Shown one piece after another: positions 39,694 to 46,840 of a stretch of DNA of 64,000 nucleotides. The stretch is from Microbacteriaceae bacterium (GTDB lineage: Bacteria > Actinomycetota > Actinomycetes > Actinomycetales > Microbacteriaceae). Position 1 is the first letter of the stretch, and each line of letters begins with the position of its first letter. The position numbers and the translations under genes were made by a program. Below the pieces are notes generated by a model. The model did no database searches. It had not been told where the DNA came from and worked only from the letters and a program-made list of their open reading frames with translations. The stretch is from the NCBI GenBank assembly GCA_024639935.1, contig JAHEFZ010000008.1:27240-91239 (forward strand), in the 5' to 3' direction.

Positions 39694-40290
39694 GTGGATA
39701 AAGTCTCGACAATCACGGGTATCGGAGTGCCGCTTCGTCGAACGAACGTGGATACCGACCAGATCATCCCCGCCGAGTTTCTCAAGCGCATCACGAAAAC
39801 AGGGTTTGATGACGCATTGTTCGAACGCTGGCGCAAGGATTCCGATTTCGTCCTCAACAGGGAGCCGTTTTCACACGGCACGGTGCTCGTCGCCGGAGCG
39901 GACTTCGGAACCGGTTCATCGCGCGAACACGCAGTGTGGGCACTTCGCGACTTCGGATTCCGCGTCGTCGTCGCGCCGCGATTTGGCGATATCTTCCGCG
40001 GAAACTCGGGCAAACAGGGGTTGGTGACGGCGGTTGTCCCTGATGACGTCGTTGAACGAATCTGGTCAGCTCTGGAAGCCGCCCCCGGAACCGAAGTGAT
40101 CGTTGATATTGAGTCGCGAACGGTAACGTGTGGAAGCGTGACGAGCGCATTCGAGATTGACGATTACACCCGATGGAGACTCATGGAAGGCCTCGACGAC
40201 ATTGGCTTGACGATGCGCCATGAATCCGACATTGACGGGTTCGAATCGCGCCGCGAATCGTGGCGCCCGACGACGTTGCCAGCCCGATGA
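39694..40290 (+). CDS. leuD: 3-isopropylmalate dehydratase small subunit
   Basis: GTG start; [40 protein letters not shown]. Confidence 0.96.
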
Positions 40291-41654
40291 CGGCACACGA
40301 CGACGACGCGCGTGCCCAAGGAGCAAAAGTTGGCTTGTCGGCAGACACGCTTGTCATCCGTGGCGGAAAGCCGCTGCGCGGCCGGGTGGATGTGCGCGGC
40401 GCAAAAAACCTCGTGACCAAAGCCATGGTCGCCGCCCTGCTCGGGGATTCTCCGTCCGTTTTGAGAGATGTCCCCAACATTTCCGATGTTGCCGTCGTGC
40501 GCGGGCTCCTCGAAGCCCACGGCGTCCATGTCACCGACTCGGCCGAAGGCGAACTCACGCTCGACCCGACGAACGTCACCAGCGCACACTTTGCCGAGAT
40601 CGATGCACACGCAGGCTCGAGCCGTATCCCCATTCTTTTTTGTGGCCCATTGCTCCACCAACTCGGGGAAGCCTTCATTCCCGACCTCGGTGGCTGCCGT
40701 ATCGGTGATCGCCCCATTGATTTCCACCTGGACGCATTACGTGCTTTCGGAGCGGTGGTCACCAAGCAACCGCAGGGCATTCACCTCACAGCGTCCGAGC
40801 GACTCAAGGGAGCGCATATCGAGCTTCCGTTCCCGTCCGTCGGGGCGACCGAACAGGTCTTGCTCACGGCCGTTCGTGCCGAAGGAGTAACCGAACTCAA
40901 GAACGCGGCAATCGAACCCGAGATCATGGACCTCATTGCGATTCTGCAAAAGATGGGCGCAATAATTTGGGTGGAACCAAACCGCACCATCTTCATCGAA
41001 GGAGTCGAAAGCCTGCACGGCTACGAGCATCGGTCACTTTTCGACCGAAACGAGGCCGCGTCGTGGGCGTGTGCTGCACTCGTAACCAAGGGCGATATCT
41101 TTGTGCTCGGCGCCAAGCAGCAAGAACTTCTCACTTTCCTCAATGTCTTTCGAAAGGTCGGCGGAGAATTCGAGGTCCACGAAGACGGAATTCGATTCCG
41201 ACACCCGGGTGGCCGGCTCCATCCAGTGGTCGTTGAGACGGATGTGCACCCTGGCTTCATGACCGATTGGCAACAACCATTGGTTGTCGCCCTGACGCAG
41301 GCCGAGGGCACCTCGATTGTGCACGAGACGGTCTATGAGAACCGCTTTGGTTTCACCGAATCGTTGAACAAGATGGGTGCGAACATCGAAATTCATCACG
41401 ATGGAATCGCGTCAATTACGCGTCGAGTCCCACGGCGCAAATTGGAACAGGCCGCGGTCATAGAGGGCCCGACCCCGCTTCACGGTGCGGACATCCGTGT
41501 TCCCGACCTTCGCGGAGGATTCTCTCACCTCATTGCCGCCCTGGCCGCGACGGGAACCAGCACCATCAGCAACGTCGGAATCATCGCCCGAGGCTACGAG
41601 CACTTCATTGACAAGCTCCGCGATCTCGGGGCTGACTTTGAGCTCGCGGACTAG
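40287..41654 (+). CDS. murA: UDP-N-acetylglucosamine 1-carboxyvinyltransferase
   Basis: ATGA overlap with leu[32 protein letters not shown]. Confidence 0.94.
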
Positions 41655-41673: not shown

Positions 41674-42408
41674 ATGATGACGAAGACCGAAAAATCTGCG
41701 GGCTGGCGCTTCACCGCGGGCTTAGCCCTGCCCCTCATGGCACTTATTTCTCGCATCACGGTTCGAGGAATGGAGAACATACCCGCGAAGGGCGCATTCA
41801 TCCTTGCACCATGCCACTTCAGCGCGATCGACCCGGTAGTGATGGGCATTGCCTTGTGGAAAGCCGGGCGTACCCCTCGATTTATGGCAAAAGAATCGCT
41901 GTTTCGTGTGCCCGTACTCGGCGCGGTTCTTCGCGGGCTCGGGCAAATCCCGGTTGACCGGGCGGGGCAGCAGCGGGCGTTAGGGCCGATGAAGGCCGCG
42001 CGATCTCTGACAAAATCAGGCGGGGGAATTGTGGTGTATCCCGAGGGTTCCTTGACCCGCGACCCCGATCTGTGGCCGATGCGAGGCAAAACCGGCGCCG
42101 TTCGAATGGCGCTCGACGCAGACATCCCTTTAATTCCCGCGGCGCACTGGGGGACGCAGATTCTGATGCCGAGGTATTCGGGACGGATTCGATTCTTTCC
42201 ACCGACCCCGATCACCGTCCTCATCGGTCGCCCAATCGATCTGTCCGCTTTCAAGGGAAAAGTGCTCGATCAGAAATCGCTCACGGCAGCGACCGAAATT
42301 CTCATGGTTGCCATCGCCGAACTTCAAGGTCAGTTGCGCGGAGAAAAACCTCCAACCCAGCGTTGGGACCCTGTCGAACACAACCAGACGACCACGGGGA
42401 AGTTTTAG
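41674..42408 (+). CDS. plsC: 1-acyl-sn-glycerol-3-phosphate acyltransferase (PlsC-like)
   Basis: PCHFSAIDPVVM (HX4D), VYPEGSLTRDPDL; ATG after AAAGAGGAG. Confidence 0.93.
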   Translation: MMTKTEKSAGWRFTAGLALPLMALISRITVRGMENIPAKGAFILAPCHFSAIDPVVMGIALWKAGRTPRFMAKESLFRVPVLGAVLRGLGQIPVDRAGQQRALGPMKAARSLTKSGGGIVVYPEGSLTRDPDLWPMRGKTGAVRMALDADIPLIPAAHWGTQILMPRYSGRIRFFPPTPITVLIGRPIDLSAFKGKVLDQKSLTAATEILMVAIAELQGQLRGEKPPTQRWDPVEHNQTTTGKF

Positions 42409-43409
42409 TGGCTACCGTCGCAGTCCTGGGAGCGGGCGCGTGGGGAACGACGTTTGCGAAGGTGCTGGCCGATGGCGGCGCGGACGTTCAATTGTGGGCT
42501 CGACGCGACGAAATTGCGCGCGAGATTAACGAAACCCACCGCAACACCACCTATCTGCAACGCGTCAATCTGCCCTTGACCATCACCGCATCCACCTCCC
42601 TGTCTGCGACTCTCGCCGGAGTTGATGAAGTGTATCTGTCCGTCCCGTCGCAGTCGCTGCGATCGGTCCTCGAGGGAATTGGCGGTCAATTGGGTGATTC
42701 CGTTCCCATCGTGTCACTGATGAAGGGCGTTGAGCGAACGTCGGGACTCCGGATGAGTGAAGTGATCCGAGAAGTGACCGGTGTGGATGAAGGTCGCATC
42801 GTCGTGGTTTCTGGACCAAACCTCGCTCTCGAACTTGCCAAGGAAGAACCGACTGCGTCGGCGGTCTCGTCGACCAGCACCGACGCTGCTGTTGCTGTCG
42901 CCGCGACCTGCCGCAATGGTTACTTCACGACCCTGACCAACACCGACGTGATTGGCACTGAGTTCGGTGGAGTACTCAAGAACCTCATTGCTGTCGCGGT
43001 GGGAATCGCCGATGGCGTGGGGTACGGCGACAATACGAAAGCATCCATTATTACGCGCGGATTAGCGGAACTGTCGGCATTCGCCTCAGCGTACGGCGCT
43101 CGTCCGGAGACGATGTGGGGACTAGCGGGTCTGGGGGACCTCATCGCAACCTGTGAATCACCGCTCTCTCGCAACAACACTGCGGGCAGGCTTTTGGGGC
43201 AGGGCTATTCGTTTGACAGGGTGATTCGGCAGATGGATCAAACTGCGGAGGGTTTGTCGTCCGTCGATCCGATCCTCGTCCTCGCCGCCGCTAAAGGTGT
43301 ATCCATGCCGATAGTGTCGCAGGTTCAACGGGTGCTGCAGGGAACGCTCGACCCGCGAGAACTCGCACCGCACCTGGCAACCGACTCCGAGATTCCGTCG
43401 GAGGAATAG
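42408..43409 (+). CDS. gpsA: NAD(P)H-dependent glycerol-3-phosphate dehydrogenase
   Basis: TAGTG overlap with plsC; VAVLGAGAWGTTFAKVLADGG; GGVLKNLIAVAVGIADGVGYGDNTKA. Confidence 0.96.
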   Translation: MATVAVLGAGAWGTTFAKVLADGGADVQLWARRDEIAREINETHRNTTYLQRVNLPLTITASTSLSATLAGVDEVYLSVPSQSLRSVLEGIGGQLGDSVPIVSLMKGVERTSGLRMSEVIREVTGVDEGRIVVVSGPNLALELAKEEPTASAVSSTSTDAAVAVAATCRNGYFTTLTNTDVIGTEFGGVLKNLIAVAVGIADGVGYGDNTKASIITRGLAELSAFASAYGARPETMWGLAGLGDLIATCESPLSRNNTAGRLLGQGYSFDRVIRQMDQTAEGLSSVDPILVLAAAKGVSMPIVSQVQRVLQGTLDPRELAPHLATDSEIPSEE

Positions 43410-44138
43410 GTGGCCATACAGGCTCTGGCAGACGGCCGGGTGCTCGCCGAACGAATCGGCAGCGCCCCCACGCGAGTCGTCGCTCTACACGGATGGGGAC
43501 GGTCAGGAACGGATTTCGCGGGCGTTCTCGCGGGACTGAGTGCTCTGGCAATCCATTTGCCCGGTTTCGGACCCACCGGGCCGCCCGAGACAGCGTGGGG
43601 TACAGCGGAATATGCGGAACTCGTTGCCGAGGCAATAAAACCGCTCGGTCCCGTCGTCCTCGTCGGTCACTCATTTGGAGGCCGCATTGCCGTTCGACTC
43701 GCAGCGGCGCGGCCTGAATTGGTCTCTGGACTTGTGTTGACAGGCGCCCCACTGGTCCGACTCGACCCAGTCTCTAAACCAAAGTTGTCGTATCGAATTG
43801 CAAAAATACTTGGTCGAATCGGCTTCATCCCCCAATCGGCTTTGGACGCTCGACGCAGAAAGGCGGGGAGTGCCGACTACAACGCCGCTCAGGGCATCAT
43901 GCGTGACATTTTGGTCAAGACCGTGAACGAAAACTACGACGACGATCTCGCGCGCATCACCGCACCGACGTGGCTGGTGTGGGGGCAGAACGACACTGCT
44001 GCCCCGACGGCGGCGGGCAAGGTCGCGTCGGAGCGAATTCGGGGCGCACGCTGGACCGTTGTTCCCGGTGAGGCGCATCTGTTGACTCCCGTTCTGGGGG
44101 CTGCCGTTCGTGCCGCCATCGATGAGGCTCTCGCATGA
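43410..44138 (+). CDS. Alpha/beta hydrolase
   Basis: VVALHGWGRSGTDFAGVLAGL, VLVGHSFGGRIAVRLA nucleophile elbow. Confidence 0.9.
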   Translation: MAIQALADGRVLAERIGSAPTRVVALHGWGRSGTDFAGVLAGLSALAIHLPGFGPTGPPETAWGTAEYAELVAEAIKPLGPVVLVGHSFGGRIAVRLAAARPELVSGLVLTGAPLVRLDPVSKPKLSYRIAKILGRIGFIPQSALDARRRKAGSADYNAAQGIMRDILVKTVNENYDDDLARITAPTWLVWGQNDTAAPTAAGKVASERIRGARWTVVPGEAHLLTPVLGAAVRAAIDEALA

Positions 44139-45664
44139 TTGAGATTTTCTCCTGGTCAATCATCGGGCTTCTTCCGGTATTTCTCGGCTTCAAGTGGCTG
44201 AGAGTCGCGCAACGTGAGCACTACATTCCCGGCTGGACGACGCGAATCGCCCTCGGCTGGGGTCGTTCGCGCCAGGTGTCATGGTGGCCTCTCATCGCAG
44301 CAGTTGCGGTGGAATTTGTCTTGTCGAGCATTTCAACCGAGGCGTGGTGGATCTCACTTGCCGTGCCGTCCGTGGTTTTCGCTCTGGTGCTGTGGTGGCC
44401 CTGGGGCCTCCGTTTTCGCGGCACGTCGTCCCCGTTGCAATGGACTGGCCGACTTCGACGCCTCGCGGTACTGTGGCTCGTTCTATCGTGGATCGTAATT
44501 TTCGTGACCAGCATGTTAGGGCTGTCGTACGCGGTCGTGCTTTTCGGTTTCGTCGCTCCTGGAGTAATGGACCTCGCCTTGGTTGTTGCCCAGCCCATGG
44601 AGAAAACATTGTCGAAGAAATGGCTCGTCGCGGCGCAAAAGAAACTCGCTCAGGTGAAACCGACCGTCGTCGCCCTCACCGGCTCGTACGGGAAGACATC
44701 CACCAAGGGCTATGCAGCCCACCTCGTTTCCACCAAGTATTCCACGGTGCCCAGTCCCGCGTCGTTCAACAACCTCATGGGATTGGCGCGCGCGGTGAAC
44801 GACAAGTTGACCCCGGGAACCGAGGTGTTCATCGCCGAGATGGGAATGTATGGCGAGGGTGAAATTCGCGAACTGTCGAGACTGTTCCCGCCGGACATTG
44901 CCGCGATCACCACAATCGGTGAGGCGCATCTTGAACGGTTAGGAAGTCGTGACGCAATTCTTCGAGCCAAGAGCGAGATCGTCGAGAACGCAGCTACCGT
45001 TGTTTTGCCGATTGATGACCCCGAACTTTCGGCGCTCGCCAACCGGTGCGAGTCGGAGGGAAAGCGCGTCATTCGCGTAAGCGCTCAGGGGGCACAAGCG
45101 GATGTATCGGTCAGCCCCTCGAAGGGCACGGTCACAATCGGGCGAGAATCGGTTCCCGTCACGATTTCAGGAGTTGGTCACGCGGTCAACGTTGCCGTCG
45201 CGGTGGGAATCTCCCATGCGCTCGATGTACCTCTCGCCCTACTGGCACCGCGACTCGGAGACCTACCCACCGCGGCACATCGCGCCGAGCCACAACTGGC
45301 CCCGAGCGGGGCAATAATTATCGATGATTCGTACAACGCGAACCCAATCGGGTCCGCTCGCGCGGTCGAGGGCGGAGCAGCGATGGCGAAGAACCGCAAG
45401 GGTCCGTTCATCGTCGTCACTCCCGGAATGATTGAACTCGGTGGGGTGCAATCGCAACGCAATCGCGCCTTGGCGGCCCAGGTCGCACAAGTCGGCGGCG
45501 AACTCTTCGTGGTGGGGTTCACGAACCGCGCGGCTTTAGTTTCGGGCCACCCCTCTGCGAAGGTTTTCGCCGACAGGCCCCCCGCGATGGCCGCCGCCCT
45601 CGAACGCGCTGGCGCTTCGGGCGTTATTCTTGTCGAAAACGACCTGCCTGATCATTACGCGTAA
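44135..45664 (+). CDS. Membrane-anchored Mur ligase-family protein (MurF-like)
   Basis: N-terminal about 170 aa with 4-5 predicted TMs, then VVALTGSYGKTSTKGYAAHLV, FIAEMGMYGEGEIRELSRLFPPDIAAITTIGEAHLERLGS, IIIDDSYNANPIG. Confidence 0.88.
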   Translation: MIEIFSWSIIGLLPVFLGFKWLRVAQREHYIPGWTTRIALGWGRSRQVSWWPLIAAVAVEFVLSSISTEAWWISLAVPSVVFALVLWWPWGLRFRGTSSPLQWTGRLRRLAVLWLVLSWIVIFVTSMLGLSYAVVLFGFVAPGVMDLALVVAQPMEKTLSKKWLVAAQKKLAQVKPTVVALTGSYGKTSTKGYAAHLVSTKYSTVPSPASFNNLMGLARAVNDKLTPGTEVFIAEMGMYGEGEIRELSRLFPPDIAAITTIGEAHLERLGSRDAILRAKSEIVENAATVVLPIDDPELSALANRCESEGKRVIRVSAQGAQADVSVSPSKGTVTIGRESVPVTISGVGHAVNVAVAVGISHALDVPLALLAPRLGDLPTAAHRAEPQLAPSGAIIIDDSYNANPIGSARAVEGGAAMAKNRKGPFIVVTPGMIELGGVQSQRNRALAAQVAQVGGELFVVGFTNRAALVSGHPSAKVFADRPPAMAAALERAGASGVILVENDLPDHYA

Positions 45665-45703
45665 TTGCCGGCTTCCGGGGCAGGGGAGCCAGACGGGAAT
45701 CCG

Positions 45704-46840
45704 ATGAGCGCCACACGACCCTGGGCCGTCGTATTTGGCGGGCCGAGCCCCGAACACGAAATTTCGATTCTCACTGGATTGCAGGCAGAGCGAGTCTTGA
45801 CCGATGGCGGCGATTCCGTTCACCCCATTTATTGGGCACCGTCGGGCGAGTGGTTTCTTGTACCGAACGGCACGGAAGCAAAGGACTACCTCGAGGGCGC
45901 GCCGAAGTCGGCCAAGCAGCTCGAAGTGCGACTCGCTCCCGAGCCCGGTTTCTACGTTAAGAAGTCTTTTGGGTCCGGAACACTCGATATCGACGCTGCG
46001 TTGCTCTGTCTTCACGGCGGAATCGGTGAAGGGGGCGGAGCCGCCGCGATTTTCGATGTGATGGGAATCCCGGCCACCGGTTCGACACTTTTCGCCGGTG
46101 CGGTCGGCATGGACAAACTCGCGTTTGGTGGATTGATGGAATCTGCAGGAATCCCGACCTTGCCGCGGCGTGCGGTTTCGACTACAACCGAACCCGGCTT
46201 CACGGGCCCATACATTGTCAAGCCGCGGTTCGGAGGTTCGTCTATCGGCATCGAGATCGTCGATGACCTTTTGTCAGCACGGGCACTCGCACAAAACAGC
46301 CCGCACCTGAAGAACGGTGCTGTGCTCGAGCCGTACAAACCAACCCTGGTGGATCTCAATATCGGGTTCCGAACTTTCCCAGCCCTCGAATTGACTGACC
46401 TCGAAAAACCGCTGCGTGGGGAAGGGGACTCAGGCCTCTATTCCTATGCCGAAAAATATCTTGCCGGCGGTGCTGGTTCGGACGCGGGACTTTCGAGCGC
46501 TCCCCGCGAATTCCCTGCGAAGTATCCCGCAAAGGTGCATGAGCGCGCGGCGGAACTCGCGCGCGCGGTGTCCGATGTCACCCGATTGACGGGCGTGGTT
46601 CGACTCGACCTGTTGTTCGACGAAAAATCGGGCGACCTTTTCGTCAACGAAGTGAATTCGATTCCTGGAGCGCTGTCGCTCTACCTTTGGGCTCCCAAGC
46701 ACCCCGCACTGACAATTCTGCGTGATGCTCTCAACGAGGCACGCGACCGCCGTGTCGTTTTCCCCCAGGCTGGACACGGTGGCGGGGTGGCCCTGCGCGC
46801 CGCGGGCGGGATATCCTCGAAACTCCTCGGCCTCGGCTGA
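45704..46840 (+). CDS. ddl: D-alanine--D-alanine ligase
   Basis: VVFGGPSPEHEISILTGLQ, LHGGIGEGGGAAAIFDVMGIPATGSTLFAGAVGMDKLAF, NEVNSIPG. Confidence 0.95.
   Translation: MSATRPWAVVFGGPSPEHEISILTGLQAERVLTDGGDSVHPIYWAPSGEWFLVPNGTEAKDYLEGAPKSAKQLEVRLAPEPGFYVKKSFGSGTLDIDAALLCLHGGIGEGGGAAAIFDVMGIPATGSTLFAGAVGMDKLAFGGLMESAGIPTLPRRAVSTTTEPGFTGPYIVKPRFGGSSIGIEIVDDLLSARALAQNSPHLKNGAVLEPYKPTLVDLNIGFRTFPALELTDLEKPLRGEGDSGLYSYAEKYLAGGAGSDAGLSSAPREFPAKYPAKVHERAAELARAVSDVTRLTGVVRLDLLFDEKSGDLFVNEVNSIPGALSLYLWAPKHPALTILRDALNEARDRRVVFPQAGHGGGVALRAAGGISSKLLGLG

Follow-up and report, generated by a model that had tools for sequence, protein, structure and literature searches.

The window analysed here, a 64,000-nucleotide stretch of the genome of a Microbacteriaceae bacterium, encodes a membrane-embedded ligase of the MurF type (mMurF) that belongs to a three-gene module made up of an alpha/beta hydrolase, mMurF and a D-Ala-D-Ala ligase (Ddl), hereafter the triad. 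The triad and canonical MurF are almost mutually exclusive: the triad replaces the canonical enzyme and is not an addition to it. We consider it probable that mMurF is the sole ligase adding D-Ala-D-Ala in its host and the core of the module, with a lipid-linked MurNAc-tripeptide as its most likely acceptor. The architecture of the protein, its position and that of its Ddl as the only enzymes of their kind, the conservation of the module and the replacement of canonical MurF are all supported by the observations described below.

A MurF-type ligase with a membrane domain

Residues 182–358 of mMurF match Mur_ligase_M (PF08245, 103 bits) and residues 390–500 match Mur_ligase_C (PF02875) at 24.9 bits, just under the cut-off of 28.4, while the Pfam search gave no match for residues 1–180. 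The NCBIfam murF profile (TIGR01143) covers the protein only over profile positions 64–403, with 190 bits against a cut-off of 288.6. Since this match begins at profile position 64, the MurF N-domain is absent from mMurF. Homologues from other phyla likewise score under the TIGR01143 cut-off, and the UDP-substrate domain is missing from all of them.

Hydropathy and the AF2 model (mean pLDDT 83; helices at residues 2–27, 47–64, 71–87, 105–126 and 130–159) support the presence of about five transmembrane (TM) helices at the N-terminus, and the positive-inside pattern points to an N-out/C-in topology. The motifs TGSYGKTSTK, IAEMGMYGEGEIREL and DDSYNANP are all present and conserved, the first of them invariant in the A1 set of mMurF homologues, and the best matches of the model among solved structures, identified by Foldseek, are MurF enzymes. 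No similar solved structure was found by sequence for the N-terminal domain. Across 69 homologues from different phyla, Q26, Y30 and T104 are invariant and R106, R109 and E156 are conserved at 97, 90 and 94%, respectively; these residues are predicted to lie in cytosolic loops or in the helix leading into the Mur core (Table 1). A preliminary description of this DNA had proposed a membrane-embedded MurF-like ligase, with TM helices standing in for the N-domain ahead of a full Mur core, and had suggested structural prediction as a check. The Pfam matches, TIGR01143 span, hydropathy, AF2 model and Foldseek search bear out this proposal, the helical N-terminal region of the model being consistent with about five TM helices within residues 1–155.

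Table 1 Features of the triad locus and related loci. Positions are those of the window unless a locus is named.
Feature	Position	Strand	Details
murA, host operon	40260–41654	+	TIGR01072, 435 bits, above cut-off
gpsA, directly upstream of the triad	42408–43409	+	NF000942, 404 bits, above cut-off
Alpha/beta hydrolase, triad gene 1	43410–44138	+	Pfam Abhydrolase_6, 66 bits; catalytic S88 (GHSFGG), D195, H223
mMurF, membrane-embedded MurF-type ligase	44135–45664	+	509 aa
Predicted N-terminal polytopic membrane domain of mMurF	44135–44599	+	Residues 1–155, ~5 TM helices; hydropathy, AF2 helices, no Pfam match
Predicted first cytosolic loop of mMurF	44210–44224	+	QxxxY motif (Q26, Y30), 100% in 69 homologues
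Predicted second cytosolic loop of mMurF	44444–44461	+	TxRxxR motif (T104 100%, R106 97%, R109 90%)
P-loop of mMurF	44678–44707	+	TGSYGKTSTK, residues 182–191
Mur C-terminal domain motif of mMurF	45323–45346	+	DDSYNANP, residues 397–404
C-terminal tail of mMurF	45635–45658	+	ENDLPDHY, residues 501–508, family-specific
Triad D-Ala-D-Ala ligase (Ddl)	45665–46840	+	TTG start 45665 or ATG 45704; Pfam Ddl N and C
MurF C-domain relic in the dcw murF site, same genome	L007:5908–6336 (G000:C19)		Outside the window; homologues in L138–L157
Additional canonical murF beside a native-type ddl, G165	L282:7763–11708		Outside the dcw cluster

Canonical MurF (TIGR01143; PDB 4qf5, 1gg4 and 2am1) gives the best fold and profile matches and shares with mMurF the Mur middle and C-terminal domains, the P-loop and the DDxYNxNP motif. 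mMurF differs from it in having the predicted TM helices in place of the UDP-substrate N-domain, a SYGKTSTK variant of the P-loop and an ENDLPD tail, in scoring under the MurF cut-off, and in its genetic tie to the triad's hydrolase and divergent Ddl. MurT of the GatD/MurT lipid II isoglutaminyl synthase (PDB 6gs2 and 7q8e) is, like mMurF, a Mur ligase without an N-domain, but it has no TM domain, carries its own C-domain (MurT_C) and is partnered by a glutamine amidotransferase. In Pfam, MurT_C is not matched in mMurF, whose partners are the hydrolase and Ddl, and the profile scores of mMurF are 12.5 bits against MurT and 190 against MurF. The low MurT score and the presence of a separate MurT/GatD pair in the same genome rule out mMurF as a MurT.

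In this MurT/GatD-like pair (L009:5491–6237 and L009:4070–5494; G000:C2), GatD lacks the catalytic Cys (FTHNAMECLG, as against ICGLYQLFG in other families) and the HG His, and the Cys is also lacking in two relatives from the same family (L307 and L308). Going by these residues, this GatD may no longer amidate D-Glu. In B-type peptidoglycan the D-Glu carboxyl carries the cross-bridge, and a link between the Cys-less GatD and this peptidoglycan type is possible.

A MurF and a Ddl-type ligase also stand side by side at vanHA clusters, for example in Nocardioides YR527 (L284). The MurF there is canonical, with its N-domain (421 bits), and has VanH and a D-Ala-D-Lac ligase as neighbours, whereas the triad has no VanH, none being found among the genes neighbouring it in the window, and its Ddl has the K-Y omega-loop of D-Ala-D-Ala ligases. 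A van-type identity is ruled out for the window's triad and explains the canonical MurF of YR527 instead. In that genome (L284:4436–8026) the canonical MurF, the only one present, is divergently oriented relative to the adjacent VanH and D-Ala-D-Lac ligase genes; YR527 also carries the triad, and its dcw cluster is without murF. It may be that a van cluster requires a dedicated soluble MurF.

A conserved hydrolase, mMurF and Ddl module

ORF coordinates confirm that mMurF starts with an ATGA overlapping the stop of the hydrolase gene and that ddl lies directly downstream, as previously described. The neighbours leuC, leuD, murA, plsC, gpsA, the hydrolase gene and ddl had been named correctly; leuC, leuD, murA, gpsA and the PlsC-type acyltransferase gene were confirmed, as was thiL. 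Most triad loci of the family show the order gpsA, hydrolase, mMurF, ddl.

Relatives of mMurF were sought by a scan of 84,980 species genomes. Among the matches listed, they occur in Actinomycetota, Bacillota, Bacteroidota, Acidobacteriota, Poribacteria, Synergistota, Chlamydiota, Chloroflexota, CPR and others, and the order hydrolase, mMurF, ddl is retained on one strand in most of these listed relatives. Across phyla the hydrolase gene is found upstream of mMurF, and intergenic gaps within the triad are mostly −3 to +50 nt. Clustering of all ORFs around the listed loci yielded just three widely recurrent families, present in at least 66, at least 56 and at least 50 loci, and no further recurrent partner besides hydrolase, mMurF and Ddl. 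At a Poribacteria locus (L187) the gene order is mraW-ftsI-murE-hydrolase-mMurF-ddl-mraY-murD-ftsW, the triad filling the place of murF in the dcw cluster. The three genes are conserved as a module across phyla, and the earlier view of the hydrolase as a linked partner is upheld.

The catalytic residues of the hydrolase are strongly conserved (S88 in 96%, D195 and H223 in 100% of the 57 triad hydrolases compared), and the protein is most probably a true serine hydrolase. The triad Ddl is the single Ddl match found in the genome and conserves omega-loop residues K251-Y252 and the catalytic residues, as in D-Ala-D-Ala ligases. It is of a divergent type, its identity to the native Ddl of triad-free family members reaching no more than 34%; the Ddl, like MurF, has been swapped. 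What places triad Ddls from different phyla in the same subfamily is synteny together with conserved residues rather than a tree, and those of L187 and other loci are only 26–30% identical to the Ddl in the window.

In a further family of Actinomycetota (f37: G401, G463, G473, G516, G526, G579, G606 and G664), the best MurF matches score like mMurF (E ~1e-55 to 1e-60), and these genomes are absent from the N-domain profile matches at E ≤ 1e-10. These proteins are possibly a more divergent membrane MurF.

The sole MurF of the genome and a relic in the dcw cluster

Six Mur-ligase middle domains were found in the genome (1.31 Mb, 23 contigs, 95.8% complete): MurE, MurD and MurC in the dcw cluster, one taken as FolC, MurT, and mMurF. 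No full canonical MurF was found in this assembly, and mMurF appears to be the genome's sole MurF-type ligase. Its gene lies between gpsA and ddl, away from the position between murE and mraY in the dcw cluster. A search of that cluster for a canonical murF, which the preliminary description had advised, revealed just a 142-aa ORF between murE and mraY, at the canonical murF slot, whose stop overlaps the mraY start. As the genome has no canonical murF and the dcw site holds only this C-domain relic, mMurF must supply the normal MurF product. The earlier suggestion that mMurF works beside a canonical MurF on another acceptor is not supported, in view of the same two observations. It had also been argued that the proposal would fail if mMurF were the only murF and had normal soluble-substrate activity; the first half of this describes the genome, in which mMurF is the only MurF.

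Compared with family sequences from outside the genus, whether canonical MurF C-domains or relics of them, the 142-aa product shows mostly 35–48% identity. In the predicted structure (pLDDT 93) it adopts a well-folded MurF C-domain whose best fold match is E. coli MurF. The product lacks the DAYNASP, GEMAELGE and VKSSK motifs; sequence and model both indicate a non-catalytic MurF C-domain. The relic is present in all 20 triad dcw clusters examined in the family. Its length varies between genera from 142 to ~340 aa with differing truncation points, and the C-domain is always kept, with a conserved ARHIHNAAGLEGSWDGES-like stretch. An assembly gap is ruled out as the cause of the missing murF, since the dcw cluster is contiguous, the relic recurs in those 20 clusters, and complete single-contig genomes such as G190, G220 and G286 are alike.

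Within the genus, dN/dS of the relic is 0.16–0.22 where dS is finite, and 0.18 in the closest pair (dS 1.35), for which mraY gives 0.02 and ftsL 0.15; constraint on the relic is weaker than on most of its neighbours. The in-frame comparison of murE within the genus gave 76–90%. Such dN/dS values, together with the nearly invariant motif EGSWDGES, speak for a protein that is being maintained and against a dying pseudogene. A non-catalytic MurF C-domain thus seems to have been retained in one family after the enzyme was displaced, and its retention suggests a second, perhaps scaffolding, role of this domain. MurE-MurF binds MurG in Bordetella (PMC6420597).

Displacement of canonical MurF

In the family, mMurF was matched at E ≤ 1e-30 in 31 of 300 genomes, representing 8 of 84 genera, and 29 of these 31 have a close homologue of full-length type. 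Canonical MurF above the cut-off was lacking in 17 of 18 triad genomes and in 3 of 182 non-triad genomes (200 family genomes; Fisher p ~1e-20), a computed tally one shorter than the hand list of family genomes under the MurF cut-off. Two of the three non-triad exceptions are fragmented assemblies. The third, G160, is MurF-less only by score, and this reading is ruled out by the presence of a canonical MurF with an insertion. The single family triad genome with a canonical MurF, G165, encodes it outside the dcw cluster beside a native-type Ddl (Table 1). In Actinomycetota, canonical MurF was found in none of 27 triad genomes, compared with 263 of 297 genomes of the phylum (a total that includes the triad genomes). 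murE adjoins mraY, with no murF between them, in G034, G356, G358–G362, G376, G377 and Nocardioides YR527. Canonical MurF occurs alongside the triad in several Bacteroidales and a few others.

On a tree of mraY and murE from the family, the MurF state changes six times, and the mMurFs of the family form one clade (SH-aLRT 99). Either an old acquisition with differing losses or transfer within the family would fit this pattern. The two states interchange even inside one genus (g117), where G198 has the triad and G140 and G249 have canonical MurF.

In the triad genome of Aquibacillus kalidii (G383, L281:8606–9514), a degenerate MurF of 302 aa lies between murE and mraY. It consists of the N-domain and a decayed middle domain without the C-domain, and appears to be an independent murF remnant of the opposite end.

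Proposed mechanism and alternatives

The lipid acceptor, the reordered pathway and the role of the hydrolase are what we infer from these data. The triad Ddl would produce D-Ala-D-Ala in the cytosol, and the five predicted TM helices would hold the Mur core at the inner face of the membrane, where it would use ATP to activate the tripeptide carboxylate, then joined to D-Ala-D-Ala. The most likely acceptor would be undecaprenyl-PP-MurNAc(-GlcNAc)-tripeptide (lipid I/II), since a membrane domain carrying conserved QxxxY and TxRxxR motifs on its predicted cytosolic side takes the place of the N-domain that binds UDP/MurNAc. The MurF step would then come after MraY, perhaps after MurG, rather than before. 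The hydrolase would work with the MurF step, perhaps in clean-up or proofreading; the idea that it disposes of incorrectly formed esters or peptides is a guess.

The N-domain of canonical MurF binds the uridine and MurNAc parts of the substrate. MurT, which acts on lipid II and has no N-domain, offers a precedent: its authors remark that a UDP-binding domain would not be needed there and would collide with the membrane (PMC6113224). The proposed order of steps requires MraY and MurG to accept tripeptide forms. When MurF is depleted in S. aureus, tripeptides turn up in the peptidoglycan (PMC9603463), which suggests to us that both enzymes accept tripeptides there. We lean towards a widespread alternative route of this kind in triad bacteria, in which MraY, and perhaps MurG, would use tripeptide precursors, the TM-domain MurF would complete the pentapeptide on the membrane, and the relic would serve in another role. 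Of the two acceptors put forward earlier, the lipid-linked one stands as the best inference, given a polytopic domain in place of the UDP-binding domain; a different peptide acceptor does not fit with mMurF as the sole MurF. In the open-licence literature, where silence is not proof of absence, we found no membrane MurF, MurF paralogue or lost-murF description of the mMurF family, and no biochemistry or experiment on any of its members.

As a counterpoint, the membrane domain could be merely an anchor, with the Mur core alone binding UDP-MurNAc-tripeptide, and the binding partner of the conserved loop residues could be the hydrolase, MraY or a phospholipid rather than the acceptor. mMurF would then be an ordinary MurF still using UDP-MurNAc-tripeptide, its TM domain serving only to position the enzyme beside MraY for channelling. 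The same end product is needed, the Mur core is intact, and triad and canonical MurF interchange in single genera such as g117, all of which would suit an anchored enzyme. We nevertheless regard this, the main rival, as unlikely, since every homologue is without the UDP-substrate domain and the cytosol-side residues conserved across phyla exceed the needs of a plain anchor.

That mMurF acts as an accessory ligase beside a canonical MurF, attaching D-Ala-D-Ala or some other dipeptide to an acceptor of another kind (teichoic acid or a second precursor pool), would accord with the triad genomes, mainly Bacteroidales, that retain the canonical enzyme. It is very improbable here: with no other MurF in this genome or in most Actinomycetota triad genomes, mMurF must carry out the essential step, and in L187 the triad occupies the murF slot itself. 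We give equally little credence to a two-part enzyme, in which mMurF would work together with the MurF C-domain protein kept in the dcw cluster. Such an arrangement would account for the retention of that domain in 20 of 20 clusters, for purifying selection on it within the genus and for its well-folded model, but mMurF has a complete C-domain of its own, triads outside the family occur without a relic (murE adjoining mraY), and Aquibacillus keeps a fragment from the N-terminal side. A lipid-linked acceptor for a membrane-held, sole MurF is the reading we retain.

Significance

Teaching presents MurF as universal, the final cytosolic reaction ahead of lipid I, and the enzyme is also being pursued as a target for drugs. 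With an unrecognised membrane MurF present across several phyla, many genomes annotated with 'murF' may make their pentapeptide elsewhere in the cell and in another order. If the proposal is true, the textbook order of peptidoglycan steps is changed in triad bacteria. It offers a use for the conserved hydrolase, MurF and Ddl operon, and the membrane domain with its conserved residues is testable. The relic of the dcw cluster would be evidence for a second role of the MurF C-domain, one that outlives catalysis.
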